From Gordius sp. MW1 (taxonomy: Eukaryota > Nematomorpha > Gordioida > Gordea > Gordiidae), in the NCBI GenBank assembly GCA_964036665.1, contig OZ038530.1, forward strand, positions 12,619,001-12,683,000: 64,000 nucleotides of DNA, in the 5' to 3' direction. Below the pieces are notes generated by a model. That model made no database searches. It had not been told where the DNA came from and saw nothing but the letters and a program-made list of their open reading frames with translations. Both the position numbers and the translations under genes were made by a program. Position 1 is the first letter of the stretch, and each line of letters starts with the position of its first letter. Below are positions 3,318 to 60,619 of this stretch, in pieces.

Positions 3318-5341
3318 ATGGCTTCTATAACCAATAAAAGAAAGCGTACTTTTGAAATTTTGAAAAATTCAGACTCTTTGTAAGTATATGTTAATAAACT
3401 TCTATATAATAAACATTTAACTAATTACATTTGCATATTCTTAATCTATAAAAAATGCTTTTTAAAATGATATATAATTTATACAATATTAAGCATATTT
3501 TCATATTTATATAAGCTTTTAAAAATTGATGTAGTAATTTTCACACTATAGGCTTTTAAATACAGAAGAAGTCCTTACACTTTTAGAATCAGATAGTACT
3601 TTATTGAGCAACGTTCAAGCCATTGATTTAGCCCTTATTCCACCTGTTGATGGTTTTGATACAGATTATGATGAAATTTCAGAAGATGAAACTGAAGTTT
3701 TTATTAATGATCCTCATAAATTAGGACCTGGTGTATTATCAAAGAAAGCTGAGGTGCTTATAACAAACAATGATAATGAAATAAATCACCTTGACACTGA
3801 AATGCTGTTACCATCTATAAACAAAGTGTCCACATCTAAAAAAGAAAATCCTTATAAAAAGCAAAAACTCTTAACATGGAAATCATTTAAACTTGTGCCA
3901 GAAACAAAGGAACATGCAAAACTTAAATTACAGAATTTACAAGAGAATGCTCCTAACATTTTAACTGAAATACAAAAATCTTCTCTTACACCCTTATAAG
4001 TTTTTCAATTGTTTTGGGATACTGACTTAATTGAGCTCATATGCAAGGAGAGTAAAAAATATGCCAAAGATAAATATAGTGATGAAACCTTTGAAGTGAC
4101 TTGTGAGAAAATGTATAAATTGCTTGGCGTTTTACTAGTATCAGGCTACTCTAAACTACCTAAAAACGTCTGTATTGGGAAACGCAAGCAGATGTTAATA
4201 ACATAGCCATTGCTAATTGTATTTCCAGAGATCGCTTTCAAGCGATCTTTAAATATCTTCATTTTTCGGATAACACTTGCAACCTGGAAATTGGAAGCCT
4301 GAAAAAGGTCAATGTTTTGAGGATTATATGAACAAAAAATTCGAAAAATATATTGAACCTAATCCCACAATATATTCTTTAGATGAAGCCAGGGAACCAT
4401 ACTATGGTAGGTTTCATTTAAAGCAATTTTTACGTGGTAAGCCCATAAGATTTGGGTATAAGTTTTGGTGCTTGAACAAGCCCAATGGTTATTGTTGTCG
4501 TTTCAAATTATATGAAGGACGTGATGAACGAGAACCAGGAGTACCCCTTGGTTCCGCCGTTGTAAAAAAGCAGGTTACAGGGTTTGTCCAATCAAATAGT
4601 CACATATTTATTGATAACTTTTTTAATTCTTTACCATTATTGGAAGAGTTGGCGAAAGATTCAATTCAATTAACAGGAACAATACGAGCCGACAGGATTC
4701 AAATGGCCCCTCTCCAAGATTTAAAAAGAGCGCCTAGGGGAGCCTGGCAAGTTCTTAGGGCAAAGGATACAAATATACAATTGTATAGATGGAATGATAA
4801 TAGCCAGGTGACCCTGGCAACAAATCGAACAGATAGCCTAGCAAGTACACTCACGAAGTGCACTAGGTATAGCAGATCAGCCAAGAGTAGGATCACCATT
4901 CCTCAACCAACCCTAATCAGCGAATACAATAAGGGAATGGGGGGTGTTGACCTTTTCGACCAGTTTCGTGGCTCATATCGTGTCAGAATACGATCAAATA
5001 AATGGTATTGGCCCCTAATACGTTTTTGTCTTAACGCTGCAGTCGTTAATTCGTGGCTGTTATACCGGGAAGTTCATAAAGGGATTCCCCTTTTAAATTT
5101 TTTGCGGAAGATTACAGTCCCTTTGCTATCTGTTCCGAACATTCCGCGATTAAGGACCGTATATCCAAGGCGTACAAGCAATGTTTATGCCGAGGTGCGG
5201 TTTGATAATCAGGAGCAATGGCCCGCAAAGAACCCCACACAAAGGAGATGTGGCCTTTGCCATAAATCCGCGAAAATCATATGCACAAAATGCAACATCG
5301 GTCTACATATTAATTGTTTTATTCAATATCATACTCCGTAA
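3318..5341 (+). pseudogene. Broken piggyBac-type transposase
   Basis: A piggyBac transposase cuts and pastes DNA at TTAA sites using three catalytic Asp residues. Here exon 1 (3318-3379) splices in phase across a short intron with a GTAAGT donor to an exon starting at 3552. The exon 2 N-terminal part is acidic. The frame is interrupted by an in-frame TAA at 3997-3999 just before the FQLFWDTDLIEL block, by a frameshift near 4165-4172, and by a second shift with an apparent small deletion near 4277-4290. After that a 354-codon frame runs to 5341. It holds SLDEAREPYYGR with FLRGKPIRFGYK, FIDNFFNSLPLLEEL, and NKGMGGVDLFDQFRGSYR. These are the three conserved Asp contexts of the family. A C-terminal Cys/His motif (CGLCHKS..CTKCNIGLHINC) is the zinc-binding tail seen in PGBD proteins. 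The breaks make it non-autonomous, although its catalytic residues survive. Confidence 0.85.
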
Positions 5342-7232: not shown

Positions 7233-7831
7233 TATATTTTACCATATAACACTCATAGTTATTTGAAAATAAACTTCTATTGGATTTATAAAAAAAAATT
7301 TAGAAAAATTGGTTAATTTATTAATATTCAAAAATTGCGACCTCGCATATAATTTTTATAGTATATATAGTTTCATTTAATAAAAGATATCATTAAAAAA
7401 AAAAAATTTATTAATATAATTTTACTTGTGAAATTTAGATTTATGTTTATAACATTATAGATGGCGCTATTTTCATATTTCTCTTTACTATTTGAAATCG
7501 TTAAGTATTTATTTTTTCTTTGAAATTTTTTTAATTTAAATTTAATGGTATTTTTTCTTTCCTTAATATATATTTCTAAGAGATTTTGTTACGGCTTATT
7601 AACTTCATTTATATATTTTACAAAAAAGTAGTAAAATAGAACGAAATACATTACGTTGAGTTCTTTAAGTAGTTGAAATATCCACCATCATGGCGGTTAA
7701 ATAATTACTTCACCATAATGGAATTAACAGCTGTTCATCAGTCTATGTTATTATTAGTCTATGGTTAAAACCGATTCAAGGTAGATGTATCTTTATGTCA
7801 TTGCTGTTTTCCAGCTGTTTTTATTTTTTTA
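7233..7831. other. Intergenic spacer upstream of the HAD gene
   Basis: AT-rich, with poly-A and poly-T runs. Around 7690-7762 a block (CATGGCGG, CAGTCTATG, TTAGTCTATGG) resembles the ends of repeat family B. The promoter of the HAD gene should lie here, but no confident core promoter motif can be assigned. Confidence 0.4.
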
Positions 7832-10800
7832 ATGTTCAAATCGCTAGTCTTTAAAACCTTGAAAAATTGTAAAATACAATCAAATGTTATAAAAATATGG
7901 GAGGGAAATCTGCAAATTCAGAGTTTATCCAGTCTGAATAAATCCTCTAGTATTAAATTAGTCATTTTTGACAAAGATGGCACACTTATATGTTTTCATT
8001 CCATGTGGAAGCCTTGGATGGATAAAATTATCACGAAGTTTGGTCAATTTACGTTAATGTCTTCTAATTTTCTTAGTCTAGAAACTTTAACTAGTCGCCA
8101 AATGAGGCCTCACTTATATAAGGCATTAGGATTTTGTGATGTAAATAAAAAATTTATCCCTGGAATCATAGCTGAAGGAACTTTGGAACAAGCCAAAGAG
8201 AAAATCACAGGTATTATGATAGCATAATAAGTCAATTAATACCTTTGAAATTTAAGTTTTGAGTGTGGTTCAACATCCTATCTATATGACTTTTAGACAA
8301 AATTTAAAATTTATTCATATTTTTTAAGGTTTTCGAAATTTTATTTAATCATATTTTTCTTGCCATATCTCATAAACTCTAGTTATTTGTAAATGGATTG
8401 AAAATCTATGATATAATTGACCTTTATACGCTTTTTATAATGCTTTTATACTCTTTACAATTTTGTTAATAATACCAAAATAATCACCCTTATAGCTAAC
8501 CTAGTATAACTATAGCTCTCAATATTTTATTATTTTTTATCTAACAAATTTTAACTTGAAACAATTAGTTTTACAATTATAAATTTGATAGACTTAGGAG
8601 GATGAATTAGTGTGATTAAATATTTATCTGCCAGGTGATTTATGCAGTCAAAAATTTATACAGGAATGATTTTTCTTTATTTTAATTCATAAATTGTCAT
8701 CAATGAAATTTTTGAAATTAGGGGAAAATTAACTGTTTCCCTTTGGCTATCACTATTTTCATGCCTCCTTCTTTTACAAATTTTTGAAAGACTCATGCAA
8801 GATGAATTAACTATTATTTTAATTTGCTAAAATAATTCTTATCAAAAATTTTGCAAAAATTGATTTTTTATAACATTTGTTTAGATATTTATAACTTTGA
8901 GGGTTAGCTCAAATTTTGACAAAAGTAGTCCACTAACTAACGTAAAACAGTTTTCAATTTTGCTCAATTATAATAATAAATAAGCATTGCGAAAATGGAA
9001 GTAAAGCCCTTTGAAAAATGTGTCTTGTAATTTTTATCCACAAATTGCAATAAACTTTTATCTATTAATAAAATATATTTTATCAAAAGTTTGAATAGAA
9101 ATCTAAATATTAGATGAAATTTTCGTAATTTGTCTATTAAAGTTTTTTCATTTGTGGACTAAAACTAGTTTACAGCCAAACCAAAATTAATATTTTTGTG
9201 TTACACTATTAGACCCTTAATTGCACTTTGTATAAATTTTTTCTTAATATAGTATCATAAAAAATTTCTTTTTTTTATATTATTTCTTTATGGGTGTTTC
9301 AATAATTCGATTTCCATTGCATTTTTTACAAAAAACTACACTCTGCATAAGTAGTAAATTATGTTAGTCAAGGGTCGTAAAAACGGCTCGGTTTTGTTTG
9401 GGTCTGTTTATGTTTAGTCGAATAAAACCAAAGGTAAGCCAAACAAAACCCAGTAGACGTTTAGGGATACTTTCTCGCCTAGTGAATAATGAATATTCAT
9501 CAACAAAAATTTTAATATTGTTTGTCACCTAAGCCGGTGGTCAGTCCTTTCAACATTAATTTCCATTTGTCTCAAATCTATTTTATTTTTCACTTTTTTA
9601 CCTGCGAAATGAAAACACTTTATTATTTTACAAAGAATAAATATTATACTTTACATCTTAACGCAATTATTGAAGATTTGATTTTCCACGAAATTAACTA
9701 GAGGTATTAACCGACGTAGAAGGGTACGGATTGGAAGAAGCGCGTAAACTCGTCATCGAGGCTTTCAAAGACCAGCACAAAATGATGAAAATTTTAGCAC
9801 CGTTCGCCGCTACTCATACGCCCCCGGCCCAAGACCACTCCGATAACCATTTGATCATGAAGGAGTTAGCAGACTTGGGGTCTATCTTTAAGAGCTTGCA
9901 GGTATTTATAACGATAAAAAAGTCTACTTCTACCTTAAGTCCAGTTTAATGATATAGTTTTGAATTTTCTTAAAAGCCTACGTGGTCTTGATTTTAGGTT
10001 GTGGGTAAATAATCCTTAGGTCTTTGAACAAGAGCTTGCGGGTTCAAATCATGCTTTCTGCACTTTCTTTCAAAAGATTTAAAATATATCACATTGTCGA
10101 CACGGCTGTCTGGCGTAGATAGCCGAGCATAACCCCTCATCCAAATATCTAAAGAAGCTGACCACCTTAGTGTGACAAAGAGCTATTGCAATTTTTTTTA
10201 GATTGTGAAAGTGAGACTTTCAAATTGTCTTATTTTTGCTCTTACCTAACGCAAAATTATTATAAGTTTTCCGAAAGTCCAAATTAAACAATTTTTATCG
10301 GCACCTTGTTAAAAATTTACATAAGCCCCCCTCCCTCTTAATAACGTGGAGAGTGTAAAGTTTATATAAAAATTTCGACGGAGTCTCAACCCCACCAGCA
10401 ATAGTTTCAAAATTATTGCCAGATTATGACATTTGACCCTACCCTTATATCATTGAAAACTTCCTTTATTTGTAAAAAATGTTAAATATTTTTCCACTTT
10501 AACTTCCCCTTCCCCCCGTTTAATTTCGATCTTGGCTGCGCCCATGTAAAAACGCATGATGACCTTGCCAAATGCCTCAAGTTTATACTTGTTTCATAAC
10601 TTACTTATCATATTTATCCAATAAAAGTATTTTTTAACTTACAAAATTTCTATGCCTACTCACAATTTGGTAATGTTAAATTATGACATAACTTACCCGC
10701 TCCGTCAAAATTGGCCAATCATGTCTTTACCATTGTTGACAATAAAAACGTGTACGATCACCCTTGTATTGTATGTAGTCATGTAAAAACGGCTGTGTTC

Positions 10801-12727
10801 CCTTTAGGCGGCTTTTGGTTTTACTCGACTAAACATTAACAAATCAAAGATTTTTGGTCTATTAATTGTTTTTCTTAGTCGACCACCAGGCATAGTCGAA
10901 ATTTTAAAAACAGACTAGAGTCGACCGATAGTCTTAGTTGAACCAATGGTCGGTCAAACAAAACCCAGCCGTTTTTATAACACAACTTGTAGGCCCTGCC
11001 TTTAAATATAACTATACCCTAGGCATTCTCGAGTTTGTTTTGCCTGGACAACTTAACGATTTCCAAAACGTTTTACTCTAATCCAAAAATATCAAAAACA
11101 AAAAAATGATGAAATCCTTTGAAATCTCACTACATAATTTAAGTAATGATAATGTCATCTTCTATTTACTTTTGCCCAGGCTAAGGGAATTAAAGTTGCC
11201 ATATGCACGGCCGACGACCGAGCTAATACGGAACACACCCTAGCATCCCTTGGGATCGCTGACCAGGTGGACGCCTTAGTTTGCGGAGATGACCTCGGTA
11301 CCAAACCGAAACCAGCACCCGACAACGCCTTAGCCATTTGTGCTAGGCTCGGAGTGGAACCATCCCGAACGGCTATAGTTGGTGACACGGTTGCTGACGT
11401 GGGTACGAGTGTCGTTATTATTTTGCAGACTGCTTTTTTTTGGTCGACCTTTGGTTCAACTAAGACTAACGCTCGACTTTGGTTTGTTTTTCAAACTTCG
11501 GCTAAACCTGTTGGTCGACTAAGAAAAGCGGACCAAAAAACCTTGGGCATTTTTATGTTTAGTCGACTTAAACCATAGATAGATCGACTGAACAAACCCA
11601 GCCTCATTAACAATACTATCATATACGTTGCCTTATTGAGATATGAAGCTAAATTAATTATAACTTTTATGGCGCCATTTATTTATTTTAGCGAATTTGG
11701 GATACGATTTAAACTGCAGGAAGATCATAAAGATCTTTTTATGGATGTTGCTAGTTGCACTTTATATCATCGATATTGTTGACCAATATTTATATTAATA
11801 AATTAAGTAAGGTTCAAATTAAGAATGCAATCGCGTACAACCCATCGGGTATAATATATGGGACACAGCGGATAATGTGTTTTTATTGTCCTTTCTTGAA
11901 GCGAGGCTTTCCGGGAATAAACTCTGCCAAGGTTATCAGCGATCTTTTTTATATAATATTTAACTCGAAATTTATACTAAACAATTAACAAATTCGCTTT
12001 AATAACTTAATTTACTTTTTTTGCAGCACGGCCTCGACTCGAGGATTAACATAGGACTCCTTCATTAATTTGATTAATAATATATTTTTCATGAATTGCT
12101 GTGCAATTTTTAGGTTACCCCACTCCCTCCTATAATTGCATAGCCAATTGAAATATGGCCTCTATAGGTTTGGAAATTTAAAAAAATGGACAGGGCCCAA
12201 GGGCGGAGTCTCGGGCCAGGTCAGAAGGTTTGAATTATGATTTTTTTAAGATCTACTTTACAACGCGTATTATAATCTACCCACACTTATTTATCTACTA
12301 ATGACTCAAGGTTCAACTCTTTCTAAAGGAGGCGACTTTTTTGATTTTTATATTCATGAGCGTATGTGACCTCATAAGTCTTAGCCAGCATTGCATTGGA
12401 ATTAGAGGGGGGAAATAATGATTTAAGCGGGGTAATAATGGTCATTTTTTGAATATTTAGTTATAATTTTGACAAATTTTTGGATTTAGAGGGGGGGTCA
12501 GCCGCCCCCCCCTCCCTTGGTTACGCCCATGCCTCACCCTATAAAACAAATCTAAAATAGGTATGGGAGTAGCTGCAAATTTAGGCTTGGTGGTGGGCAT
12601 ACTTTCTGGCGTTGGTGACGAAAGTACCCTTTCAGCCGCTCGAGCTCACAAGTTGGCGAAGGATTTAACCCACTTGACTAAAATGGTAATGGATCACGGC
12701 CAACCAGGGTCCCATGGATTATCTACG
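7832..12727 (+). CDS. HAD-superfamily phosphatase (phosphoglycolate phosphatase-like), 4 exons
   Basis: HAD phosphatases hydrolyse small phosphoesters through an aspartyl-phosphate. Exons: 7832-8210, 9702-9901, 11180-11402, 12561-12727, together exactly 323 codons with phases 1, 0, 1, 0. Motif I is VIFDKDGT, with nucleophile D47 and acid/base D49. Motif II is ICTADDRA (T203). Motif III is GTKPKPAPDNA (Lys near 237). Motif IV is VGDTVADVGMG (D262, D266), split across exons 3 and 4. A small cap domain lies between motifs I and II. The first 24 residues are basic and free of acidic residues, compatible with a mitochondrial presequence. The ATG at 7832 is the first in frame. The exon 4 donor (GTACGA, the same hexamer as the exon 3 donor) ends in phase 0 and can join the dehydrogenase exon at 13373. 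If it is not spliced, the frame stops at 12805 and an AATAAA lies near 12938. The substrate is unknown. Confidence 0.85.
8211..9701. other. HAD intron 1, with a family E repeat
   Basis: Intron between HAD exons 1 and 2. It is AT-rich with no coding signal. A short element of repeat family E sits at about 9371-9460 (AAAACGGCTCGG, TTTAGTCGAATAAAACC, AACAAAACCCAG). Confidence 0.6.
10012..10200 (+). repeat. tRNA-derived SINE, copy 1
   Basis: The head has a T-arm/B-box-like block GCGGGTTCAAATCATGC after TTTGAACAAGAGC. The body (GCACTTTCTTT, AATATATCACAT, GGCTGTCTGGCGTAGATAG, CCGAGCATAACCCCTCATCCAAA) aligns along its length with 18780-18962. The A-box part is degraded here. It lies in HAD intron 2 and is best explained as a SINE rather than a tRNA gene, because the shared similarity continues more than 100 bases past the tRNA end. 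Confidence 0.7.
10505..10546. mobile_element. Solo end of family A element
   Basis: A C-rich tract followed by CTTGGCTGCGCCCATG matches the right terminal repeat of family A. No left end is found nearby. Confidence 0.45.
10781..10983. mobile_element. Family E MITE (TCGACTAA-rich)
   Basis: The ends form an inverted repeat: TGTAAAAACGGCTG on the left and CAGCCGTTTTTATAACA on the right. The interior repeats GGTCGAC/AGTCGA and AACAAAACCCAG motifs. It is about 200 bases with no coding capacity, in HAD intron 2. Related copies lie at 9371-9460, 11405-11616 and 54787-54911. Confidence 0.65.
11405..11616. mobile_element. Family E MITE next to a splice donor
   Basis: TCGAC-rich element of the same family (TTGGTCGACC, TTTAGTCGAC, AACAAACCCAGCC). 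It begins only a few bases after the HAD exon 3 donor at 11403. Its open reading frame continues the exon 3 frame for about 60 codons, which is chance read-through rather than protein. Confidence 0.6.
12382..12531. mobile_element. Family A MITE (CATGGGCGTAGCC ends)
   Basis: The right end is a poly-C tract, then TTGGTTACGCCCATG. The left end is degraded (TTAGCCAGCATTGCATTGG). The interior has the family pattern: GAATTAGAGGGGGG, AATAATGATTTA, TGGATTTAGAGGGGG. It sits 30 bases before HAD exon 4. Confidence 0.65.
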
Positions 12728-13372
12728 GTACGACGTTCTAATAAATCAGGCATCAGTTTACGATTGTGGGTTGTTAGGTTGTTAAAATTCATGTTTAGCT
12801 TTTAAAAACGTGCTTGACAGATAATATAATATAGAAGTCACGCATCCTCGCTCGAGAGCCTAAAAACGATATTCTCCGTAACTAAGATGCTTGGCTCTTT
12901 TTTAGTTCCCGACTTAAATTCCACCCTACTGAAATGAAATAAAATTTATTTTCAACTTTATTTAATTATTATTATTATTTGAACTGGAACAAAAAATGTT
13001 GATGGCGCACTTAATAACTTTTTAATATGTTTCGTAAGCTATTTCATATTTTGCTTATATATTCAAATACCCTCACCATTAAATTGGTCAGGAATGGAAT
13101 ATTTTATGTATATACTTGGCTAGTTTAATAGAGTTAGAAAAGGACGTGATTAAGGTGAAATTGTTAAAGGAATTTTAATTGATCTTTCTCTCGATTTTTA
13201 ATTATTTTTTTATAAAAAAATTGTTGCGGAAATTTTTAGACGGTATAGCTCCCATCCCCCGGATAAGCATTTATAAGTCTTTGAATATAAAATGTTTTTT
13301 GGGGGATTTATTATGCTTGTTAAGGGCTATACTATATAAAGTATTTAAAATCTCAATATTCTATTCCTACAG

Positions 13373-16300
13373 GATCCAGACTTAGACGACAGTCATTACA
13401 CGGCCGATCCTTATCACCGAAATCGCTTGCTCGAACCTCACGTATTGGGCGAGGGCCCGATGAAGGTTATAAAGCGAAAATTAAGCAGCGCCACTTCTCA
13501 AACGTGGAAGTACCAAAGGCATTGGAACGGCGACATTGAAAAAGCCATCTCCGCCGGTCCTTACGATTATATCATTGTCGGGGCTGGATCCGCCGGTTGT
13601 GTCCTAGCCAATAGGCTCACCGAAGATGGAAATCATAAGGTTGATTGAGCACTTTGAAAAATTTTAACGTGTCAGAGCAAGGGCCTAATCAAGGGGGGGG
13701 GGCATAGAGGGGCGGCTGACCCCCCACCCCCCCCCCCCCCCCCCCTAAATCCAAAAATTTGTTGAAATTTATTAAAATTGTGGGTAAAATTTCAAATATG
13801 ATCATTTCCCCCTCTTTTAATCATTATTGCCCCCCTCTAATTCCAATGCTGGCTACGCCCATGTGTTAAAGTGCTTTATTATGAAAAGTTAAATATATAA
13901 TGATATTTAAAAAAGGCTATAAAACGAAAATAATTATAAAACGATTAAAGGGCGTTGTCAGTTTCTTTGTCTTCTTTGAGATTTAGCATTGAATCCATCC
14001 GGGAGGAAAAATTAATTTTTGCATTAACAATGGCAATTGGATATTACGAGTTAGTATTTATCAAGATTAATCAGGACTCGAATTATACCTAAACCTATAT
14101 ACCTTATTTAACAAGGTCTAACAATAATGTTATCTGATATTTGTGAGGCAAAGCTCTCTATGGTTCAACGGTTTTTTTATGTTGAAACTGAATATATGTA
14201 ATGGAGGAAACGATGGAAATGTATGTATAGGCGACATGGTTTTAATGTAAATATTTGCGAAAATGGTTTTTTAACTAGATCACGCGGCGTGTAACTTAGT
14301 AACAGTGACCTTATATAATGCGATGAAAGTTTTTATGTGTTATTTCGCATTACGTGTTTACGATTTATCATTTACCCATAATTATTGCACAGATTTAGCA
14401 TTTCGATTGTGATTATATTACGGAAGCCATTTGATTTGTAAATTGCGCTCTGCCAAATATAATTAATAGATTTTCACTTAAATTTTAGAGTACAATTTTA
14501 TTTAATCTTTTTATCGGAGCTCGTTTTCAAATCAATATTCATTTTTATCAATCAATTGTGATTAAATAGCGATCGAATGTAATTGTAAATATAGATGATG
14601 ACTTACGTGCAAAACATAAAGCTGGATTATTTTGGCTTTATCATTTATCAAATTTAACTATATTATGATGAATTTGTTTGATAAGCGTCAATATACGTGT
14701 ATATGTCCTAAACAAACCTTTATTATTTAGGAATTATAAGTCGTGTTTAAGCCTAATCTAGGTGACAATTTACACTAATATTCATTAAACCGGTTTGGGC
14801 TCAAAAAAATTTGACTTCTTCACCATGACTACCCTAATTGTAACAACCCCATTTCAGGTACTCCTCGTAGAAGCCGGTGCCAAAGATCATTGGTGGAATT
14901 GGAAGATACACATGCCAGCAGCTTTGATGTACAATTTGGGGAGCCAGGCGGTGAATTGGTATTACCACACGGCACCCCAGCCAACCATGGATGGCCGAAT
15001 CATGTATTGGCCTAGGGGAAGGGTGTGGGGTGGTTCTTCGGCCCTAAACGCTATGGTTTACATCAGAGGCCACGCCCTCGATTACGATAGATGGGATGCT
15101 ATGTATGGGGCTCGAGGCTGGTCTTATGCCGATTGCTTGCCTTACTTTAAGAAGGCCGAACACCACGATAATCTGCCACCCGATGATTACGTGGGAGGTA
15201 TACACAGTGTATTTGCGTAATTACCATGAGATAATAGCTTTTTTTTTAATAATCGTTGTTAAATATTCGGTGGCATGATTGTATCGTAAAAGTTTGTAAT
15301 ATCTCGAAACGTTTTTTTTAACAATTTAGCGCTTTTTATTTTAAAGTGTGTACTTTTGCACATAAAAAACGAACAAGCCAGTGTATTGATAAAAAAATTG
15401 AAGCTTAAATTTAGAAGTTTTCTTCCTTCCTCTTAAAAACGGCCCAGAATCTGCGAAAGAATTTAGACTTTATATTGGAAATTAGATAAAGTTCTTTAAA
15501 ATTTGAAACTGCAATTTATTTTATCAAAAAGGTAGTAGCTTGTTTATTTATGATAAGCCCTTAACTAGAGTTGTTAAATTGCTAATTTTCTTCAAACTCC
15601 AGACCCGAGCACGCACACTGAGCTGCTTAATATGCGCGTTAGCACAAAATGTGCTCGCTGTTCGGTGCACTAGGCAGAACAGTAGCCTATAAAAATGCTC
15701 GAGGGTGGAGCAGAAACTCGAGCAGATGGTAGCTGGAGTTGAAGAAAGTTAGCAATTTAACAACTCTACCCTTAACATAGGAAATACAAATTATTATTAT
15801 TATATTAATTATCCTGCCTTTGTCAAATAATAAAATGTTTTAAAAAAATTTAAATTATGAAACAGATTTTTTGGAATATGTATATGCCCTTGTGTTATGA
15901 AAAACTAGTGAATATTTGTTTTTCAAAATCTCACTAAGTTGTCTCTAAATTGTGTGCTTTTTATTATATTTACTTTCATAAGTTAACATTTAAGGCCATT
16001 AAAGATCATGTCTTTGACTTTAGAACTTAAGATATCTAAGTTGCCATTGTGGTTTTAAGTTAATTTCCTTTAAAATTTCGTGGTAAACCCTGTATTTACG
16101 GACACAATGGGGAAATTCCATAGACTTGGTAAAGTATTTCTCTAATTTTTATTGATCAATTTTAACAATTTGCGGGGCGATTTAAAATAATTGCCGTTAG
16201 AATATATGCCACTGCTCATGCATAAGGCTTGTTTCAAAAAAAATTATGCCCAAATTTCATTTTATTTGCCAAATTTTTTTAAACATAAAGCTCATGCCTA

Positions 16301-19300
16301 AGAATTTTGACTATTTCATAAATGTCATTTATAATATTAGGGGATGGCCCTCTCCACGTTAGCCGTGGTCCTATGCGTAACCCCCTTTATTCGGCATTTA
16401 TCGAGGCCGGGCAACAAGCTGGCTACCCCTATACCAACGACATGAATGGCTTTCAACAAGAAGGCTTCGGCCCTATGGATCTCACCATACACAAGGTTTC
16501 CCATCACATGTATATGTTAGGATGTAATATAGTTTGTTTTAAAAGTATAAAAGCGAAAATTGACAGGTTAATTGTTTTTTTAAATCATCAGTGAATTACA
16601 AAATGCTTATTTTTGGCTTTTACCTCAATTTTTAAATTATCCGCTCATGTAATTTTTTATGTGAAAAATAATGTGAGCAAAGTTAGTTAAATCTTTGTTT
16701 AAAGAGAAAGCCATAAGAATTGATTAATTTAGCATGGGCGTAGCAAGGATTGGAACAAGAGAGGGGCAATTATGTTTTAGGGAGTAGCAAAATGCTCTTT
16801 TTTTTATAAATTTTGGCCATCGTTATATGAATTTTTACAGAATTTCTGGATTTAGAGGGGGGGCTCTTTGCCTCCCCCTTACTACGCCTATGTAAGAATA
16901 TTAAGATTTGAACGAAACAGACCCCTTTTATTCCTTCGTTCAGGAAATTAGTTTTTATTAAATATATAAAGGGTAAAAGATGGAGTTCGGCCCGCGCTTA
17001 CCTCCATCCAATTTTGACCCGTCCTAACTTATATTCGCTGAGTAACACGCTAGTCACAAAAGTGCAAATAGACCCGGTCACAAAAAAGGCGGTGAGTGTG
17101 GATGTGAGTCCTAGATATGGATCTGGCAGCACCTCCAATAATATACGCTGCCGCGGTGAAGTTATTTTATGCGGCGGAGCCATAAATACTCCACAACTTC
17201 TCATGCTCTCGGGAATAGGTATTTGTCATGTATAAAAATATGAATGTATTTTTTGATCATTTCGGGTAATGGACTTAATTAAAGGTTTAAATAGATTGAT
17301 ACATAATTACGATATTGCTTGTTAAATTTTCTTGAAATGATTTTTTAGGAATTATCACCTATTTGGATCTTATAAGATTGTTTAGGCAATTTGACAGGAT
17401 AATATTTAAGGCAAATTATTTTGTTAGCTGTTTAAGGATGGATCAAACCCTTTTGCCATGTTATATTGCAAAAACTCGTGGCTTTTATATTTTCTATCCT
17501 TTAATTAGGAATTTCTTAAATAGTTGATTAATTTTTAACAAAACTTAATTGTTTTAACCTAAGAACATCGCAACGATTAAACATTTTATCAAATTAATAT
17601 AAGGATGGGCTTAACGGTAATTACGTTTTTAAAGATTTGTTATGATTTGCCCGGGGGGGGAGACAAATGATGATTTTTATTTTAGGCCATAAAATATCTA
17701 AAGATTGAGTGAGTTGGTTGGTTACGCCTAACACATTATATTATAGTAAGAATAATAAGCATTTCAAACAAAAATTCCTTTTTGTTGCCATAAATCAATT
17801 CTTTTTTGAATATCACTTTTAAGTGGATAATAAACTAATCACATTTATAGAACGTTAATGATATGTTAAGATTGCAACCTTTTCAGTTTGAATCTTAAGT
17901 TATATTGTGAGTTTCTATCATCCATTTTTATAATATATTACGTTTATCTCAAATTATAAATGACCTTTTGGAATAAACATATAAATTTTAGCGCCGGGAA
18001 ATTAATTAAAGATTAATCAATCGAAATCTCACGTTAAAACGACTTTAGAATGGCCAAAACTATTAGTATAAATTTAAGGCAGAGCGACTCGCCCTTTGTT
18101 ACGCTTTATGACGACTCAAAACTAATATTTTACACAACTTTTATACGGATTTTTCGAGTCGCTCACTCATCTAATAATATTTTTAAGGTGACGCCGAGTC
18201 GTTGAAGAAGCTCGGGATTCCCTTGATACTTCATTCCCCGGGCGTGGGTCAAAATTTGATGGATCATTTAGAGGTTTACGTGCAACAAACGTGTAGCAAA
18301 CCCGTAACCTTGTATAAAGCGCAATGGAAATTTCCCCTAACCATGGCACGCATCGGGTTACAATGGTTCGCCACGCGGGGCGGAGAAGCCGCTTCTTCAC
18401 ACCTAGACGCCGGGGCTTTCGTCAGGAGTCCCCTGCTCCCCACCTTAGCCGAGGATGAATGGGATGCTGCGCAACCCAATTTACAAATCCATTTTTTGGC
18501 TGGGGTCGTCGAAGATCATGGTCGTAAAGCTGGGGACTGTCACGCTTATCAAGTGAATAAATGAGTTTAAGCTTGTTGTGATGGATACTTGATTCAAGCT
18601 TATAGGTGTTAAAAGTAAGACGGGGATGTCTGTTGCTTTTTAAATGGCCTTAGGGTCAAATGTTGTATAATGAAATAAAGTGGATTAGTTATCTAGATGA
18701 AACCCATTTTGTATTCGTAATTTTAACGTTGTTTTGTAAAGCAAGCGATTTGTGATTATTTTTTGGCAAGTTTTAATGAAGCGGGGTATTTTAGTGGTAT
18801 AGACTTTGTCTTTGAAACAAGACCTCGCGGTTCAAATCCCGCTCACGGCACTTTCTTTAAAAAGTGTAATATATTACATCCATGGCTGTTAGGCCTGGAT
18901 AGCCGAGCGTCACCCCTCATTCAATCTCTAAAAAAGTTGATTATCAAGAGTGGCAAACATCTATAGGGATTTTTTTGTCAAACACCAATGATGGCGATAC
19001 TTAATTTATCGTAAAAGCTTAAGATTTTGGGAATTAACATTATAACTTTTTTTTATTATATCATAATTACCTAAATTTTTTACTGTTTTATATCATCAAT
19101 ATGTCTCGACTTTTGGTATTTATGAGATAGCCATTTCTGTCACTTGAGGAATCTGACCTATTGGAATCACAACAACACTATTATAAGTCAATTGGGAATA
19201 TTTTAAAATAGAAATCAAAATTCCGTTCTCTCTTTTTTAGTAAGACAAACTAGACCAAATGAATAGGTTGGTATGCCCTAACATTCGCATTTTAACCCTA

Positions 19301-21025
19301 TTATTTCCCCGTGCTCAGGTTCATATCGGTTCGATGAGACCCAGCAGCCGGGGCGCTCTCACTCTAACTAGCCCGGATCCGCTTAAGGCCCCCCTCCTGA
19401 ATCCGCGTTACTTAACTACCGAGCGCGACGTTGTTGAAGCTCGTGAAGCCGTTCGAGTGGCGCGGCGCGTATTTGAGCAACCAGCGTTTGACGCTTGGCG
19501 CGGCCCTACAGAGCTTCAACCTGGCTCGAGCGTCAAAAGTGACGCTGAAATTGACGCTTTCGTACGCCGTAGAGCTGATAGCGCTTACCACCCCTCCGGT
19601 ACTTGTAGGTATGAAGATGTTAACTGTTCGGTACCTTGTAGTCCGCAGATTTTATGGTGTACTATCTATCTAAAGTAGTACCGAATCTTTTTCAACAGCT
19701 ATGCATTTTTAAAGCTTTGGAGGTTCTGTAAGACTTCCTATGTGTGGTTACTTATTTGAAATATACACTACAGAGTTTGATTAAAGGGTCAAATAATTTA
19801 AAATGGCTGGTGGGGAATGAGGTATAATTTAATTAAAATAGTTTTAAGAGTTATAAAATAAATCTAAAAAAATTTATACTAAATGAATAAATTTGTTATT
19901 GATATTTTTTGACGACTGGCGTACTATTTTAGATTGATACTTAGACTTAGTTTTTCGAATTTTATGGCTAATTTATTAAGCTATAATGATATTAATTAAG
20001 GTATGTAGTAAAATTGGCACGTTAAAACTAAGAGAGGTAGCTGGAAGATTTGTTTCACTGGTTAATTCACAAGAAAATGATTTTAACGGATTTATACCAA
20101 ATTACAGCATGCGGAACCCTCAGAGAGATTGGTCAATTTCAAAAATATTTGATGTTTTTATTTAGTTAGAATGAAATCAATAAATATCGCTTGATTATTA
20201 TTATATTAAAAACTTCACCCTATTAATCTTAGACCTAGGATGCATTAGTAATTTCTCTAAGGGCCCGTCTTAATATACGATTCACCTTCATGGCGCCATA
20301 TTTTTGTTCGTCTAAATATGCGATATACATGTCGTGGAATCAACAATTTTAGTTTAGTTACCATATGAATATGCATTAATAAGCGTAATTAAAGGATAAG
20401 TATTTGTTTTACGAGCAAAAACACAAAAATAGAACAAAAATGAAGTGACGCTCGTATTGACGCGGCTATGTTCTAACATGCATTCGTTTTTTTTGCATCT
20501 ATGCAAAATCGCATTTTAAGACGCACCCATAGATTAACATAATAGTTATACGAGTTGTTTCTTATTAAATTTAACTTTTCGCGCAATATAACAAATTTTC
20601 AATTCTACTAGACAATTGCAAAGAATAGTTTTAAACGTTAATTCCATAATATTTAGTTAATTATTAAAAACAGAAATGTATACAATTACTTATTATTATT
20701 TAGAATGGGATCTCTGGACGCAAAACACTCTAGTCTTAACGCTACAAGGTCGCATCCCGTAGTCGACGCCGCCTGCAGAGTATTGGGCCTGACTGGAGCT
20801 AATTTACGCATCGTAGATGCCTCTATCATGCCCAGCATCCCTAGTGGAAATCTCAATGCCCCGGTTATAATGATTGCTGAAAAGGCGGCTGATATCATTA
20901 GAAATCGGGCCGCCTTAACACCAACATTTCAAGTTCCCGTATATCGTGCACCCGGTACATCCTATCCCAATGTCGATGTTCCCGACTCTAAACAATCTAA
21001 ACAATCTAAACGCGCCTCGCAATGA
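13373..21025 (+). CDS. CHDH: Choline dehydrogenase (GMC oxidoreductase), 7 exons, possibly fused to the HAD gene
   Basis: Choline dehydrogenase oxidises choline to betaine aldehyde with FAD at the inner mitochondrial membrane, the first step of betaine synthesis. Exons: 13373-13639, 14858-15197, 16341-16495, 16972-17218, 18188-18552, 19319-19608, 20704-21025. All junctions keep phase and end at TGA. From the internal ATG at 13460 the protein has 632 residues (family about 590-600). It begins with a basic, presequence-like [10 protein letters not shown]. Visible motifs: FAD-binding [10 protein letters not shown] (residues 41-46 GAGSAG), GMC signature 1 ([19 protein letters not shown]), signature 2 ([15 protein letters not shown]), catalytic His in SAYHPSGTC, and Asn in [17 protein letters not shown]. 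The CHDH-specific blocks [10 protein letters not shown] and [12 protein letters not shown]-like [12 protein letters not shown] are present. The 29 codons between 13373 and the ATG are open, GC-rich and hydrophilic, and follow a good acceptor, so translation may start upstream in the HAD exons. Confidence 0.95.
13691..13863. mobile_element. Family A MITE
   Basis: Long poly-G and poly-C tracts at the left end, interior CTAAATCCAAAAATTTG and AATCATTATTGCCCC, and right end GCTGGCTACGCCCATG. It lies in the intron between the first two dehydrogenase exons. The left terminal CATGGGCG is lost. Confidence 0.7.
15558..15776. mobile_element. MITE with ~40-bp terminal inverted repeats (family I)
   Basis: The left end (TAGAGTTGTTAAATTGCTAA, then TTTCTTCAAACTCCAG) is the reverse complement of the right end (CTGGAGTTGAAGAAAGTTAG, then CAATTTAACAACTCTA) with few mismatches. 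The interior is about 130 bases and GC-richer than the intron. It has no coding capacity. I saw no second copy in the window. Confidence 0.75.
16733..16892. mobile_element. Family A MITE
   Basis: Left end CATGGGCGTAGCAAGG, right end CTTACTACGCCTATG. The interior carries GAGAGGGGCAA and TGGATTTAGAGGGGGGG. It lies about 80 bases before the dehydrogenase exon at 16972, in an intron. Confidence 0.75.
17219..18187. other. CHDH intron without recognisable features
   Basis: AT-rich intron between the exons at 16972-17218 and 18188-18552. A G-tract near 17653 and the phrase TTGGTTACGCC near 17718 hint at an old family A remnant, but no paired ends are seen. Confidence 0.5.
18763..18962 (+). repeat. 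tRNA-derived SINE, copy 2
   Basis: The head looks like a tRNA: an A-box-like TTAGTGGTATAGAC, an anticodon arm with a 7-base loop (CTTTGAA between TTTGT and ACAAG), and a B box (GCGGTTCAAATCCCGC). If the fold is right, the anticodon would be UUG (Gln-like). A tRNA-unrelated body follows (GCACTTTCTTTAAAAAGTG, AATATATTACATCCATGGC, GGATAGCCGAGCGTCACCCC), shared with 10012-10200. The copy is in a CHDH intron. Confidence 0.75.
20265..20530. mobile_element. Putative MITE with CGTCTTAA ends (family J)
   Basis: The left end CCCGTCTTAATATACGATT and the right end AATCGCATTTTAAGACGCACC are imperfect inverted repeats of about 20 bases. The interior is non-coding. It lies in the last CHDH intron. Confidence 0.6.
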
Positions 21026-22680: not shown

Positions 22681-25600
22681 ATGCATATAGCCAATTTATT
22701 AATTTTTATACTCAGTTTATTTAAAATTGGCATTCTTCAAAATCTTAATCATTCCTTTAATATAAGCATCAAAAATGTTGATGAAATTATAAACCAAACT
22801 ATAGATGAAGTCGAAACGATGGCAAAAGCCGAACTTAAAAATGTGCTCTTTATAAGTAAGAAACAAAGATCTTATATTATTGCAAATTGTTAAAATTAAT
22901 ATGTTACTACTTATCCAATTTTATTTAATCTTCAGAAACGGCAAATGGCTTTAGCGATAAGTTTGATATGAAAATTAAGATGGGATTTGTATCCGTTATG
23001 GCTTCTGTCAAAATCGCGGCCGCTTTAAAGTAATTTATATAATGATAATGTAATATATTATGTTCGATCATACTAATGTGGGTAAATTGCTCACTTTGGG
23101 ATTCTTTTTTTAATGAATATACGGGTAAAACACCTAAAGATATCATTCTAATTAAATCATATTTAAAAACTATATAAAAGCATTCAGCAGTAATGCTAGA
23201 AAATTTTATTTTATGAAAATATTTTATTAAAGTCTTAAATGTTCATCATTTAAAAAAATGTATTGTAAAAGGGTAATAATCTTTTAAAAAAGCACGCGAT
23301 TATATTTTATAAGGGTTGTAGTAGACTTTTTAATAAGGATAATGTGAATAAAAAGTTATTATACTTATATGATTTTTTGCCATTTAGAACCAGTGATATG
23401 AATAAAACCGAGGTAGCCCAAATGTTAAATACCATAGATCTGAATTCTACAATAATGGAATCCAATTGCCCCTACAAATCTCACGTCAGTACACCCGATC
23501 GTGCATGCAACAATTTTTATCGCGAAATTGATGGATATTGTAACAATCTTGCTCATCCCTATAGAGGCACTTCCCATTACCCTGCACAGCGATTTATATC
23601 AGCAGATTATGGAGATGGTGATTCCTTCATACAATTTTATTAATGCAAGTTATGTATGGGTTGTATATTAGGTATATAATCATAAGGCAAGCGATGATTA
23701 TACAACGTCAAACTTAAAAATAAACATAAACATCCTATTACTTATTCCGTTTATTTATTCTAGGATCCCCACTTACACATAATTTCTATAATATAAGCCC
23801 GATAATTTACACATATGCTTTATAGGTATACTATCACCATCTTAAAACATTAGGACAATGTGAAAATTATGCGATTAAGTAAACAATTACGTTTCGTCAG
23901 TTATCAGAATTCAAAAACATACACTTTTTTCGCTCACAATTTTACACAATTGGGAATTTAATTAAGTGATAAGAGGCTGATTTAATGAATTCACCCGTAG
24001 TCTTTTTTGAAAAATTAAAAGTTTCATATAGACAAATGATCATTTGCCTTATTTTAAGGATAGTATAATTTGCTTTATGCCTTTATAAAACTTTAAATGT
24101 ATATCAGTCTATTTAAGGCATAGTAAACTCGATCAAATATAAGACAATCTAATATTGCAAGGACGTTAAATTTGCAAATTTTGATAAACCTATTTGTCAT
24201 CAAATCATTGTCTTTTCCAATGCCATTAAGAAGTTTCAATATCGCCTTGCCAAATTAAATAGATGAAACTGGCTATTTGAAGAATATTAAAACAGCCATA
24301 TCTGGTCATAGAATGTGTAGTTTGCTTTAGGATTATAAAAGCTAAACAATGCTAGGTTGTGTAAATATTGTTATTTTTTAATAAAGTAGAGCGACTTATA
24401 TATTTTTCTGTATACAGGCTTAACGGATCCAAGATTAGCTAGGGACGACCAGCCTCTCCCGAATCCTAGAATGATAAGTACGATGTCCTTACCCGATGCG
24501 CCGATATCAAACCCTATGTTTTCTAACATGGTCATGGTATTTGGTCAATTACTCGACCACGAACTAGTACTAGCATCAAGCCCTACAGGTAAGCTTTATT
24601 ATGGCTGATTTAAATAATATTTGTCTATCGCTAAATAATGCCTTGCAATGATAATGGTTGTTGATCGCCAAAACTGTAATCTTTTAAGTGATTCGAATAA
24701 AAAAAAACTACGATATTCTTAGAAGAGCAACTGTAATTTTTACTATTAAACTTATGGCTCTTAGGAACTTTATGAAATTAGTGTAATTAATCACAAAATG
24801 TAATATGCAATTTATCAATATTTTAAATGTATCAGGTTTCAAATTTGGTCGCCTTAAATGTTGCTTAGAAGAAAATAGCCGGAATCCTTTGTGTTTTGCC
24901 ATGAGCATCTTAGCAAACGATTCATTTTTTTCTGCATACGCTACCAATTGTATGGAGGTTGTAAGATCTCTACCCACCATAGCCCCTGATTGTCGTCTAG
25001 GTAACATTTATTATCCGTTAAAACCTAATTATAATAGATTTTGCATATTTATATCAATGAAAAGACCTTCGATTTAGCTTTTAAATATTTTTACTTTGTT
25101 ACTTAACAGATTGTAAATAAATGCATCATTTATATTAATTAATAAATAACGCATATTCAAAATTTTATATATTATTGCACTTTTTGAACGTACGTACTCT
25201 TATTGTGAATGTTGAAAATATTGTATATAGCTTTGTGCCAGCTCTGTTAATAATATTAAGTGCTATGCACTTTAACCATGGGCTTAGCCTGGATTTGAAT
25301 TCGAGGTGGGCAATAATGATTTAGGGATGAGCAAAATAATGATTTTTTTAAATTTTAGCCATATTTATATCAAATTCTAAAGAATTATGGATTTAGAGAG
25401 GGCAGCCGCCCATCCCTGCCTCCCCCTGGCTATGCTCATGAATTTAACATTTAACTTTATTTAAAGTATTATACTGGCACATACCTTGGATAACTAAAAT
25501 ATTTTATTATCTTTTAAATAAGGCATACGAAATCAAAATAACGAAGTTACATCATATATCGACGGATCTCCTGTGTATGGTTCGACTTTAGAAGCAGCTC

Positions 25601-28600
25601 ACAGACTGCGTACATTTGAACAAGGTATAAATTAATTAATTAATGTTTCTTTAATTTATATTATCATTATACAAGGTTTACTCAAAATGCAGCAACATCC
25701 AAATAGCAGGCATTTCAAACCATTTATGCCAATATCAAATATTTCCTTCTCTGAACAATGCGCCAACAGAACGGGACGCTTCAAATGTTTTGCTTCGGGT
25801 AATATTGAATGCTTCTACTTTATAAGGGTTCCTCTAGAATCCTTGGGGGGGGGGCGACATTTTCTCTTACATTATCTGAAGCAAACCCTGTATTACATTG
25901 GTAATTTTTAAAAACTGCCTATATACATCACCTATTTTTTATAATTTAACTAAATTCTATAATTAATAAATTGTACACACCATACGAAAGCTTTTCGATT
26001 CATAAATTTTGTGCGCCACAAATATAAATTTAATCTAACATAACATTACTAATTGCAGTTGTTTATTAAAAGTTATATAACGACATTTAAACATGCTACG
26101 AGTCTTAATTTTACAATTGCTTGTTATAGGTTGTGACTATTTACATTTATCCTGTTGTGTGTGGATTCATTACACTTCACCACCCTGTAACCCACTCTTC
26201 CCTCTCCCTCCTTGTATTATAAATATGACGCTGTCCCCTTTTTATACGATACATACATAGACTAATAGACTGCTCATTCCCTTTTAAAAAGTTTCCCCAT
26301 TTTGGCAGCCATTTTGATAAATGAAACATGAATTTTGGCCAATTTATATAGTTTGATAAATTTTTAAAATTGCTATATTGATTAAAATGGGTTGTTTCAT
26401 GTTATAAGATCAATGATTATTGTCTAATGCAATCCATCGCTATACAAACTCTACTTCACTTATTAAAATGGCGGTTGTTTTAGGCAACACTTTTGATGCG
26501 TGAATATATAAGAGATGAGCAGTCTATAAGTTTATGGATACATATTACACTCTCCTCTTTCCGTACGATAATTATATAATACTTTCTTCTCCTTACAACT
26601 GTTACCGTACATTAATTATTACCATCGCTTTGTGAGTTGTAGCAGAAACCAGATGGGGAAAAACACAGATAAAATATCTATCACACTAACATTTTATAAT
26701 TCAGGGTGTCCCATTTAAATCACATTACTTATTTCTTCGTGATTATCGCGATATTTCATATTATCTATGCATGACGTTTTCGGGTAATATTATTAAAATA
26801 CGTTAGGGAATTAAAATGCATGTAAGATTAAAAGATAACAACATTTATTTGATTGGTAATCAATTCCCTTTGTGTAATAATTTTTTTAGTTTGATTATTT
26901 TCCACTTTTTAACCTTTTTGTGATTTGCTAATCACATAATTAAAATTATATCGTATTTTGCGTTAGATATTCAAACAAATATTACCTTAATATATACGTA
27001 CTAATATTGATTTTCACCATTCTAACCTTATGTCATTCTAATAAATTTGAAAATGTAGGTATTATATAAAACAAAATTCTCATTACAATGTACAAATTCA
27101 ATTTGTCTTTATTAAGGTGATGAACGGGCAAATGAAAACACATTGCTCATCGTAATACATACGTTATTTGCCCGAGAACACAATCGATTGGCAAGAGCTT
27201 TAGCTAAGGCTAATCCGCAATGGGGTGATGAAAAAATGTAACATCGATCATGGTCATTTCGCTATTATTTATATAAAATGTTTAATATATTTTATTCACG
27301 TTTCTACATGTTGTATGAATTAAAATTTAGTGGCTAGCAAGCCAATAATTATTAGTAAGCCTTATTTATAGGCAAGCACTATAAGATTGACACGTTATTT
27401 AAGTGGTATATTATGACTTTTTAGTTATCAACAAGCACGAAGAATTGTAGCCGCCGAAATCCAGCACATAACTTACTATGAGTTTTTGCCCATTGTAATT
27501 GGACCAGCCAAAATGGAAAAATATAGGCTTAATTTAAGGCGAGAAGGCTACTTTAATGAATACAACCCTGATATAGATGCCACTATTGACCAGGGTTTCT
27601 CAACAGCCGCTTTTCGGTTTGGTCATAGCTTAATCAAGTATATTTATAAAAATCATCATTATATTAACACCTATTTTACGTGTATATTGATGAGCACTGT
27701 TTGATGTTGAAAAGTTATTTCTTACAAATATAAGTTTAATAAAACATTATTAGCATTTATTACAGAATGTTATCACGTACTAAGGGGCTATTTAAAATAT
27801 CAAAAGAACTTCAATACTAAAACTATCAAGAAATAGTGTGCTATTGAATTGAACCCAACGACTCATATTTAAATATATTTTTTCTTAAACTTATCATGCT
27901 AAACCAATCCATTTAATCACCATATTTTTTGTAACTTTTAAGCAAAATTTTGTGGAGAAGTTAAAAAAAAGCTTTAATCTTTACATTCCCCTCTGACTTC
28001 GCTTTCATTTATTTGGACATTTTCGAACTTAATTGTTATAATAGACATACATACATATAGATAACTTGAACAGAAATCAACTAAATTATTTGCATAGTTA
28101 GTTAATAAAGCTATTTTTATATTGTATATTCTAATGTTGGGGCCTGTGAGGGGTAGGTTGACAAAAAGACTAAACTCTAATTTCCTAAACTCTATTTTGG
28201 TTTATTAATGTAAATAAACTTAGCAATTATAAAAGACATGGGCGTAGCCAGGGGGGGGGGCAGGGAGGAGCGGCTGCCTGATCCAAAATTATGGCCAAGA
28301 TTTCAAAAAATGATCATTTTCCCTCCCTAAATCATTATTGCCCCTTTCTAATTATAATGCTGGCTGCCCATGAAAAACGATATTCGTATGTAGAATATAA
28401 TAATATAAAACCTCCTAATATTTTTAAAAATGGTACTGGCACCGACTAATCATCATTAATATATTCATTTACAAATTTTAAATAGAAAATACCAATACTT
28501 CTAACTTCTATGATATCGGCAGAACATCTAAAGCAACGTTTATTAATTTGTATTAATTATTAAATATTTCAGATAATACAAATTTATTTTTACTTTTAGC

Positions 28601-35989: not shown

Positions 35990-37371
35990 AATTACCTGAT
36001 GTTTGCTGTTCGCCTTGCCCAAGCTCGAAGAAAAATGTGTTTTTTTATTAAATAGTATTAAGCTTTTTTAATTTAGCCTTAGATATAATATTTTGTCATA
36101 ATTTATATGCCTTAGTGTTACATTAATAAAGGCGCTCATTTTTTATAAATTGCTGTTTCAAATTTTTGCATGAAATATTGTGTTATTATAAAATCCCAAA
36201 ATTGTCGCAATATAAGTTTGCGCTCTCATTAGTTTCATGAATGAGGTAATACAATCAAAAATTGCTTTAATCTGCGCACCTAAAAAAGGGCGAAAATTAT
36301 AAAGGAGTTTAATCGGGAGTATTTTGTTTGATCAAAGCTTCAGATTTTGAAAAGTTGCCTTAATTGATTTTTACAAATAGGTACAACTCTCCATCGATAT
36401 CATCCTCTCTATTTTTAAAAGAGCATTTCAAATAAAATTCTTATAAGTTTAAGCTGTTTTCTCATTTGAAATTAAAATTAATTGGGAAAAACCTGAGTTA
36501 ATCCAACAGATGCTTTTGGCGGGTAGTATATATGAAACGGTATCTCTTTTCAAATCAAATTTTTGAAGTTGGAATTCAGAAAAATTTCAAATCTCATCGA
36601 TGCCTTCCTTTCTTATTTATGCTGAGAGATCGATTGTAATGTTTGTTCTATTAAATGGTATCACCAATGCATCTGCTGTTTCCTGTTAATCCTTAAACGA
36701 AATTTTTACAATCATTTATTTGTCTGAGACATAAATTTTTAGCCCTTTTTTGTAAAATAAATAATTATGGAAATATTTGTAAAATATTTAAACTGAAAAT
36801 GATGCTATTATCAAGCAAATTTTATGTTCTACGATATGTTATAATATAAATGAGGAAAGATACATTAATCTTCAATTAAATTAGTTTCCTAAAATTGTAA
36901 AGTTTATAATGTATAATCAATTACTGGTGTAAATAATAATGTTCTAATAAAGTTAACAAGCAAATTTTATAATCATTTTTGTAGAAAATTTAAAATTGAT
37001 TTTTTAAGGGGTCGGCTTACAAATTCAATAATCCCTCTATTTTTAAATATAATGATTACGATGACATTTTATTAGTCATCATCCACAATTGTATGATTTC
37101 GATGATTGGTAACAATGATTGGAGTTTTCAAAGGTCTTATTAAGACAACAATTTTTTACATACTGTATTCATGAACTTTTATAACTATTGATTATAGATT
37201 TTGAGTTTAATAACATTTGCAAAATGTGATTCGTGTATAAAAGAAACTGATATAAAAAATATGTAGGGTGAATTAACCTCAAAATTGACTTTTTTTATAT
37301 TATTTGTAAGTTTTAATCTAAAAAATTACAATTTTTTTGTATGCTATATAGACTTTTAGTCGAGAAATATC

Positions 37372-44014: not shown

Positions 44015-60619
<16,605 letters not shown>

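Follow-up and report, generated by a model that had tools for sequence, protein, structure and literature searches.

A probable fusion of a HAD phosphatase with choline dehydrogenase in the nematomorph Gordius sp. MW1

The window studied here is a 64,000-nucleotide stretch of the genome of the nematomorph Gordius sp. MW1 (assembly GCA_964036665.1, contig OZ038530.1, positions 12,619,001 to 12,683,000 of the forward strand); coordinates below count from its first letter. Between 7832 and 21025 on its plus strand lie exons for a HAD phosphatase and, downstream of them, exons for a choline dehydrogenase (CHDH), which together probably constitute one fused gene. The 984-residue protein encoded by such a gene would have a HAD-IA type phosphatase at its N-terminus, connected by a linker of some 75 residues (approximately 312-386) to a complete CHDH. 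We favor this reading because the bridge between the two parts is coding-like, the phases match, the gap has an intron-like length, a full HAD domain precedes the junction, and the two activities are connected by a pathway link. In the mechanism that we propose, 12727 would be spliced to 13373, the HAD would strip the phosphate from a choline-type phosphate, and the CHDH would next oxidize choline to betaine aldehyde; the protein would be mitochondrial, and would act as a two-step enzyme leading from phosphocholine to betaine aldehyde, either as a single chain or as two parts cut from each other within the linker. Phosphocholine is our best guess for the HAD substrate, one helped by the PchP enzyme of Pseudomonas; a phosphoethanolamine-like or phosphonate-derived substrate is possible. 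We consider the fused gene together with this mechanism to be fairly likely. Mitochondrial choline oxidation in animals leads to betaine, methyl groups, and an osmolyte, and a phosphatase joined to CHDH would point to a candidate source of the substrate for that enzyme. Further, the fusion would offer a direct test of the role of this HAD family, both in animals and in bacterial choline loci.

The gene model has 11 exons, four for the HAD and seven for the CHDH, with consistent splice phases across all junctions. Rereading and splicing bore out the original prediction that the HAD exons (7832-8210, 9702-9901, 11180-11402, and 12561-12727) sum to 969 nt, or 323 codons, and that they end in phase 0 at ACG/GTACGA; the GTACGA donor also closes the preceding HAD exon (at 11403). 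Exon 1 holds the modeled start codon and motif I (FDKDGTL), exon 2 the cap region, and exon 3 motifs II, III, and the beginning of IV. The first CHDH exon (13373-13639) contains the 29-codon bridge (13373-13459) and the flavin adenine dinucleotide (FAD) motif GAGSAG. It is followed in the spliced translation by exons at 14858-15197, 16341-16495, 16972-17218, 18188-18552, 19319-19608 (bearing HPSGTCR), and 20704-21025, the last including the stop codon. As had been anticipated, the joint frame of 2,955 nt translates into 984 residues, and its sole stop is the terminal one. The first HAD exon is AT-rich (GC 0.32). Its frame is open 5' of the ATG at 7832, back to 7769, and an acceptor-like TTTTCCAG lies near 7813; the real HAD start may sit further upstream, in an earlier exon.

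In the HAD part, a Pfam comparison identifies PF00702 (9.2e-26), and the subfamily IA motif set is present, with DxDGT as motif I, T/S as motif II, K as motif III, and GDxxxD as motif IV. Its active site had been described as intact, and this holds: in an alignment of 34 rows (the window sequence and 33 of the 87 loci described below), D47, D49, K237, D262, and D266 are invariant, and T203 is nearly so. The domain falls below the curated cut-offs of TIGR01449 (phosphoglycolate phosphatase; 58 vs. 180 bits) and TIGR03351 (phosphonatase-like; 77 vs. 219 bits), and NF046057, which it matches in the HAD portion (E = 2.5e-06), has a cut-off far above the score obtained. No chain named PchP is present among its 17 sequence matches in the Protein Data Bank (PDB). 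An AlphaFold2 model of a bacterial relative (L009) has a confident fold (pLDDT 95.5), with helices between motifs I and II; among its structural neighbors in the PDB are NANP, AlnB, phosphoglycolate phosphatases, and the phosphatase portion of MtlD (7oct, TMq 0.62), and this company does not assign a substrate. When the ends of the 87 bacterial HADs are projected onto the window protein, their median is residue 316 (range 294-512), and 80 of them end at or before 323. Because the bacterial proteins mostly end by that residue, exon 4 completes the HAD domain.

The CHDH part contains both GMC domains (PF00732 and PF05199), and its active-site motifs, the GMC FAD motif and HPSGTCRMG, are present in the translation, as the earlier reading had it. 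It matches NF002550 (choline dehydrogenase) over the full length and reaches 735 bits where 605 are required; the cut-off of the BetA equivalog TIGR01810 is not reached (651 vs. 732 bits). The closest solved structure is 9lq0.

The 29 bridging codons look translated, and in the frame of the HAD. The first CHDH exon is indeed open in phase 0 for 29 codons ahead of the ATG at 13460, which encodes the only in-frame Met of that exon (Met353; the following Met is residue 431). This openness is weak evidence alone because a second frame is also open over the bridge (13324-13539, 71 aa) and because 9,152 of 20,000 dinucleotide shuffles of the bridge remain open. When scored by a codon model against introns (log-likelihood ratio, LLR, in nats), the bridge reaches 13.8 in the HAD frame; this value is higher than that of 95.5% of 312 real coding windows and is matched by none of 40,926 overlapping intron and intergenic windows (4,438 of them open), which upholds the earlier impression of coding DNA. 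With training restricted to the other three genes of the window, the LLR is 12.9, and the remaining forward frames score -3.9 and +3.5. The best antisense frame over the bridge scores 9.1. Of 5,563 exon windows read out of frame or antisense, 42 were both open and as high-scoring as the bridge; the same was true of 72 of the 20,000 dinucleotide shuffles. The GC content of the bridge by codon position (0.72, 0.38, and 0.55) resembles that of HAD exons 2-4 (0.60, 0.42, and 0.52). The codon measure does not detect every real exon, as shown by HAD exon 1, whose score is around zero or negative.

The proposed joining intron (12728-13372) has an intron-like length of 645 bp, compared to 476-1491 bp for the other nine introns of the gene. 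Its donor at 12728 scores 5.5 bits, which places it in the top 7.6% of GTs and in the mid-range for this gene, whose other donors score from 0.3 to 9.1 bits. The acceptor at 13372 had been called a good one; it is in the top 0.2% of AGs when judged by a general consensus, but only in the top 48% according to a position weight matrix trained on the other nine acceptors of the gene, which are too few sites to trust. An isoform restricted to the HAD and ending at 12805 had also been suggested. The read-through of exon 4 (12728-12805) is open to that stop, but it lacks the look of coding sequence (LLR of -3.6 for 12728-12802, vs. +3.0 for the last ten codons of the exon).

A separate CHDH gene could have a coding first exon of its own that splicing joins to 13373, which would account for the coding bridge without any fusion. 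We looked for candidates among ATG exons with a phase-0 end and a donor of at least 4 bits. Between 8211 and 13340, 14 such exons were found, ten of which begin inside HAD exons; none starts in the gap between the two parts (12728-13340). The best of the other four, at 12186-12227, has an LLR of +7.0 and a donor of 8.0 bits, but it comprises just 14 codons in a HAD intron, and the scan that singled it out covered about 5 kb with no chance expectation set. Within the gap, a single separate ATG exon has a phase-0 donor (13027-13107). It is open and encodes a basic peptide, and AT-rich first exons exist here, as HAD exon 1 illustrates; however, the LLR of the gap exon is -6.9 and its donor scores 2.7 bits. 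The gap thus holds no convincing separate start exon for CHDH, and we regard a gene of this kind as quite unlikely. We view as very improbable a polycistronic pre-mRNA in which the acceptor at 13372 receives a spliced leader in trans, and from which HAD and CHDH are made as separate proteins. Trans-splicing occurs in some animal groups, and the short gap, the shared strand, the quality of the acceptor on the general consensus, and the plausibly related functions would suit it, but the bridge looks coding. Neither Rfam (at gathering thresholds) nor a tRNA scan gave a match in the window; the Rfam result says little regarding this scenario, as leader genes lie elsewhere.

The pathway link comes from the bacterial relatives of the HAD. 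A single-sequence search confirmed no relatives in viral or genome contigs, and a phage search with the DNA of exon 1 gave no match. A first set of 87 loci was assembled: a profile search gave one viral contig (L007) and at least 489 places in genome contigs, 80 of which were retained with the window HAD as reference, and six further loci came from plasmids. The relatives found are stand-alone bacterial proteins; all 80 retained genome loci (of at least 489) are titled bacterial, and a second animal species is absent among them. In locus L059, the genes betA, betB, betI, choX, choW, and choV are followed by the HAD gene, beyond which are betaine-homocysteine methyltransferase-type and sarcosine-oxidase/GcvT-like genes. 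For a wider test, 289 alphaproteobacterial genomes were searched with the L059 HAD, and 32 had a match at E<=1e-40. From these, 30 regions of up to 14.7 kb (about 7 kb either way) were taken, with the query genome and one contig-end case excluded. With neighbor genes called at identity thresholds that we chose, betA is near the HAD in 10 of the 30 regions, and any choline/betaine or methyltransferase-type gene in 13; the other neighbors are BetB (4 regions), BetI (5), ChoX (7), ChoW (7), ChoV (6), and sarcosine-oxidase type genes (4). Among all 50 control regions, one has a choline/betaine gene and none has betA. The first 30 controls (20 kb) were placed by hand at round coordinates; they cover half of the genomes (15 of 30), chiefly those in which the HAD has no choline gene nearby, and none passes. 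The other 20 (14.7 kb) were added from eight genomes that do have a choline gene near the HAD; one of these passes (L208, which has a sarcosine-oxidase/GcvT-like gene that shares a contig with the HAD of that genome), and betA is found in none.

The arrangements in these regions vary. In L132, betA and the HAD gene adjoin on one strand, with aligned ends 35 bp apart; elsewhere, the HAD gene follows choV, is accompanied by betB on the opposite strand, or lies next to a sarcosine-oxidase type gene. Because the arrangements differ, we argue that HAD and choline genes have become associated repeatedly. The HAD of these choline loci is a candidate phosphocholine phosphatase family. The HAD gene recurs in choline/betaine loci at L059, L121-L123, L125, L127, L128, L132-L134, L137, L138, L143, and L145. 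A link to MttB-type (trimethylamine/glycine betaine) methyltransferases was considered and rejected: such genes are within about 8 kb of the HAD in 23 of the 87 loci (among them L005, L012, L021, L059, L063, and L079, from several lineages), but 17 of the 23 are from Mesorhizobium, and the wider test found no enrichment (2 of 30 HAD regions vs. 2 of 50 controls). Members of the HAD family also follow genes for ABC importers (substrate-binding protein, ATPase, and permease) in L088, L089, L090, L004, L181, L183, and L189, which are from Martelella, Sulfitobacter, and Chloroflexota. PhnT2-related sequences were detected by tblastn in L004, L181, L183, and L189, and a DeoR-type regulator is near the importer and HAD genes in L004 and L088-L090.

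In trees, the window HAD groups with those of Chloroflexota (support 95/95 and 96/87), apart from the alphaproteobacterial choline-linked clade; the rows of these trees were preselected by similarity and are, beside the window HAD, bacterial relatives only. Horizontal transfer from Chloroflexota was considered on this basis and is not claimed, given the preselection and the lack of eukaryotic relatives among the rows. A close HAD is present in 9 of 301 Chloroflexota genomes. Four of the nine regions encode a PhnT2-type ATPase with at least 60% identity, and two (L183 and L185) a choline/betaine-type ABC permease. Ten control regions have neither of these at those levels; what they do match are aldehyde dehydrogenases (44% and 37%), an MttB-type gene (37%), and an ATPase (32%). 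In L010, a GcvT/sarcosine-oxidase-like gene stands ahead of a PhnS-like importer and the HAD. The choline link is thus direct in the sister clade; for the clade of the window HAD itself it is only suggestive. The shared theme of these HAD neighborhoods could be phosphorylated amino alcohols.

Several of these results, and a property of the linker, weigh against a fusion or against the link said to favor it. A CHDH gene is near the HAD in 1 of the 87 first-set loci (L059). The HAD used as query for the 30 alphaproteobacterial regions belongs to a choline locus, and genomes that are related do not count as independent events. Some members of the alphaproteobacterial clade lie elsewhere, such as the Sinorhizobium HAD located between waaA and lpxK. 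None of the nine Chloroflexota HADs has betA nearby (three of the regions are shortened by contig ends), and a PhnT2-type ABC importer is their commoner neighbor. At the junction, the acceptor ranks poorly on the nine-site matrix, and the nulls for the codon score consist of intron, intergenic, out-of-frame or antisense exon, and shuffled windows rather than true 5' untranslated regions (UTRs) of this genome. Finally, no stretch of 24 residues in the protein is more basic than the one that starts at Met353, and a separate CHDH start would look like this.

The properties of this stretch (13460-13531) merit consideration. Among the 961 24-mers of the protein, the highest net charge (+6) is attained by those starting at residues 351-353; the 24 residues from Met353 have this charge with no acidic residue, whereas by our own count the preceding 29 residues carry -5. 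We estimate the chance that a charge peak falls within two residues of a Met at about 0.15, given 28 Met residues. The local hydrophobic moment is 0.45, compared to a 95th percentile of 0.41 for the protein. Further, the sole R-x-[FYL]-[SA] motif of the protein occurs at residue 358 (RKL/SS), although about one is expected by chance in 984 residues, by our estimate. The motif corresponds to mitochondrial cleavage sites of the R-3 class; a passage in a review describes Arg at -2 or -3. The segment is compatible with a separate CHDH start, with what a fused gene has kept of such a start, or with an internal presequence.

A separate start at the ATG at 13460 is the main rival to the fusion. In this arrangement of two neighboring genes, the HAD would either read through 12727 to the stop at 12805 or use a different 3' splice; CHDH would begin at Met353 with its own mitochondrial presequence, behind a 5' UTR that is either spliced or unspliced. 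The jump in charge from -5 to +6, followed by the lone RKL/SS site, is in keeping with this idea, as are the mitochondrial location of CHDH and the absence of an ATG from 13373-13459 in all frames. AATAAA sequences at 12740 and 12938 could serve a HAD gene ending there, but about one is expected in DNA this AT-rich (an estimate). Moreover, the supposed UTR is coding-like in one frame, the codons read through past 12727 look non-coding, and the start context is weak, with C at -3 of the ATG. Overall, we deem two genes unlikely. The fusion put forward in the original prediction is the best-supported of the alternatives by virtue of its joint frame and coding bridge, and the bacterial choline loci add an argument absent from that prediction, but it is tempered by a Met353 stretch that looks like the start of a separate CHDH. 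The “presequence-like N-terminus” claimed for the fused protein fares less well: the first 25 residues do carry a net charge of +4, but there is no Arg in residues 1-45, and the best hydrophobic moment, 0.33, is below the 90th percentile of the protein (0.35). The case for the HAD N-terminus as a presequence is thus weak.

If the fusion exists, the Met353 segment raises the possibility, doubtful but with a precedent, that an animal phosphocholine phosphatase and CHDH are made as one mitochondrial precursor that is cut by the processing peptidase at an internal presequence. Passages in two papers (PMC8847149 and PMC8835746) describe yeast Arg5,6 as two mitochondrial enzymes that are made as one precursor and cut internally by the mitochondrial processing peptidase. 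The likeness is incomplete, as the enzymes and the kingdom are different, the N-terminal targeting signal of the window protein is weak, and its cleavage is hypothetical. Were it true, the protein would be a metazoan processed tandem enzyme, a counterpart of Arg5,6, and would provide an animal mitochondrial route from phosphocholine to betaine that parallels the bacterial HAD-betA loci.

Other known systems resemble parts of the proposed fusion. The bifunctional mannitol-1-phosphate dehydrogenase/phosphatase MtlD (NF046057, 7oct) likewise joins a HAD phosphatase to a dehydrogenase that acts on a consecutive metabolite; however, it is bacterial, its dehydrogenase is of the NAD(P) type and acts on a sugar phosphate, and its phosphatase acts second, whereas the dehydrogenase here is an FAD-dependent GMC enzyme. 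The alphaproteobacterial choXWV-HAD and betA-HAD loci place the same HAD family beside a BetA/CHDH gene, but as separate genes, and with a HAD from a clade other than that of the window. The CHDH part has a full-length likeness to choline dehydrogenase (NF002550, 9lq0); CHDHs are not known to carry a HAD domain. PchP of Pseudomonas aeruginosa, as described in a passage of PMC3170909, hydrolyzes phosphorylcholine, and its production occurs on choline, betaine, and dimethylglycine; in contrast to the fusion, it is a stand-alone bacterial enzyme. A HAD-CHDH fusion was not found in the literature searched, which was covered in part and mostly as titles and the beginnings of abstracts, and an automatic annotation may exist; its novelty is thus provisional.

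The window also holds four other features on the plus strand. A transposase-like element is located at 3538-5341, in which 4274-5338 matches DDE_Tnp_1_7 (2.5e-45), the piggyBac-type transposase domain; more open frames are just upstream, in other frames. A multi-exon animal heme peroxidase gene is found at 22717-31413 (PF03098 in the three exons tested), and a multi-LIM, FHL-like gene at 37360-41205 (PF00412 in the one exon tested); the extents of both were judged by eye. A probable SMARCC/Moira-type SWI/SNF subunit is encoded at 44753-60619, with a SWIRM domain at 51753-52112 and a Myb/SANT domain at 54409-54639; the rest was assigned by eye, and 44753-45205 has no Pfam match. Finally, by eye, a repeat in which long runs of G and C precede CTAAATCCAAAAATTT-like sequence occurs near 12490, 13700, 16860, and 21460, in introns and intergenic DNA; it is probably a mobile repeat.

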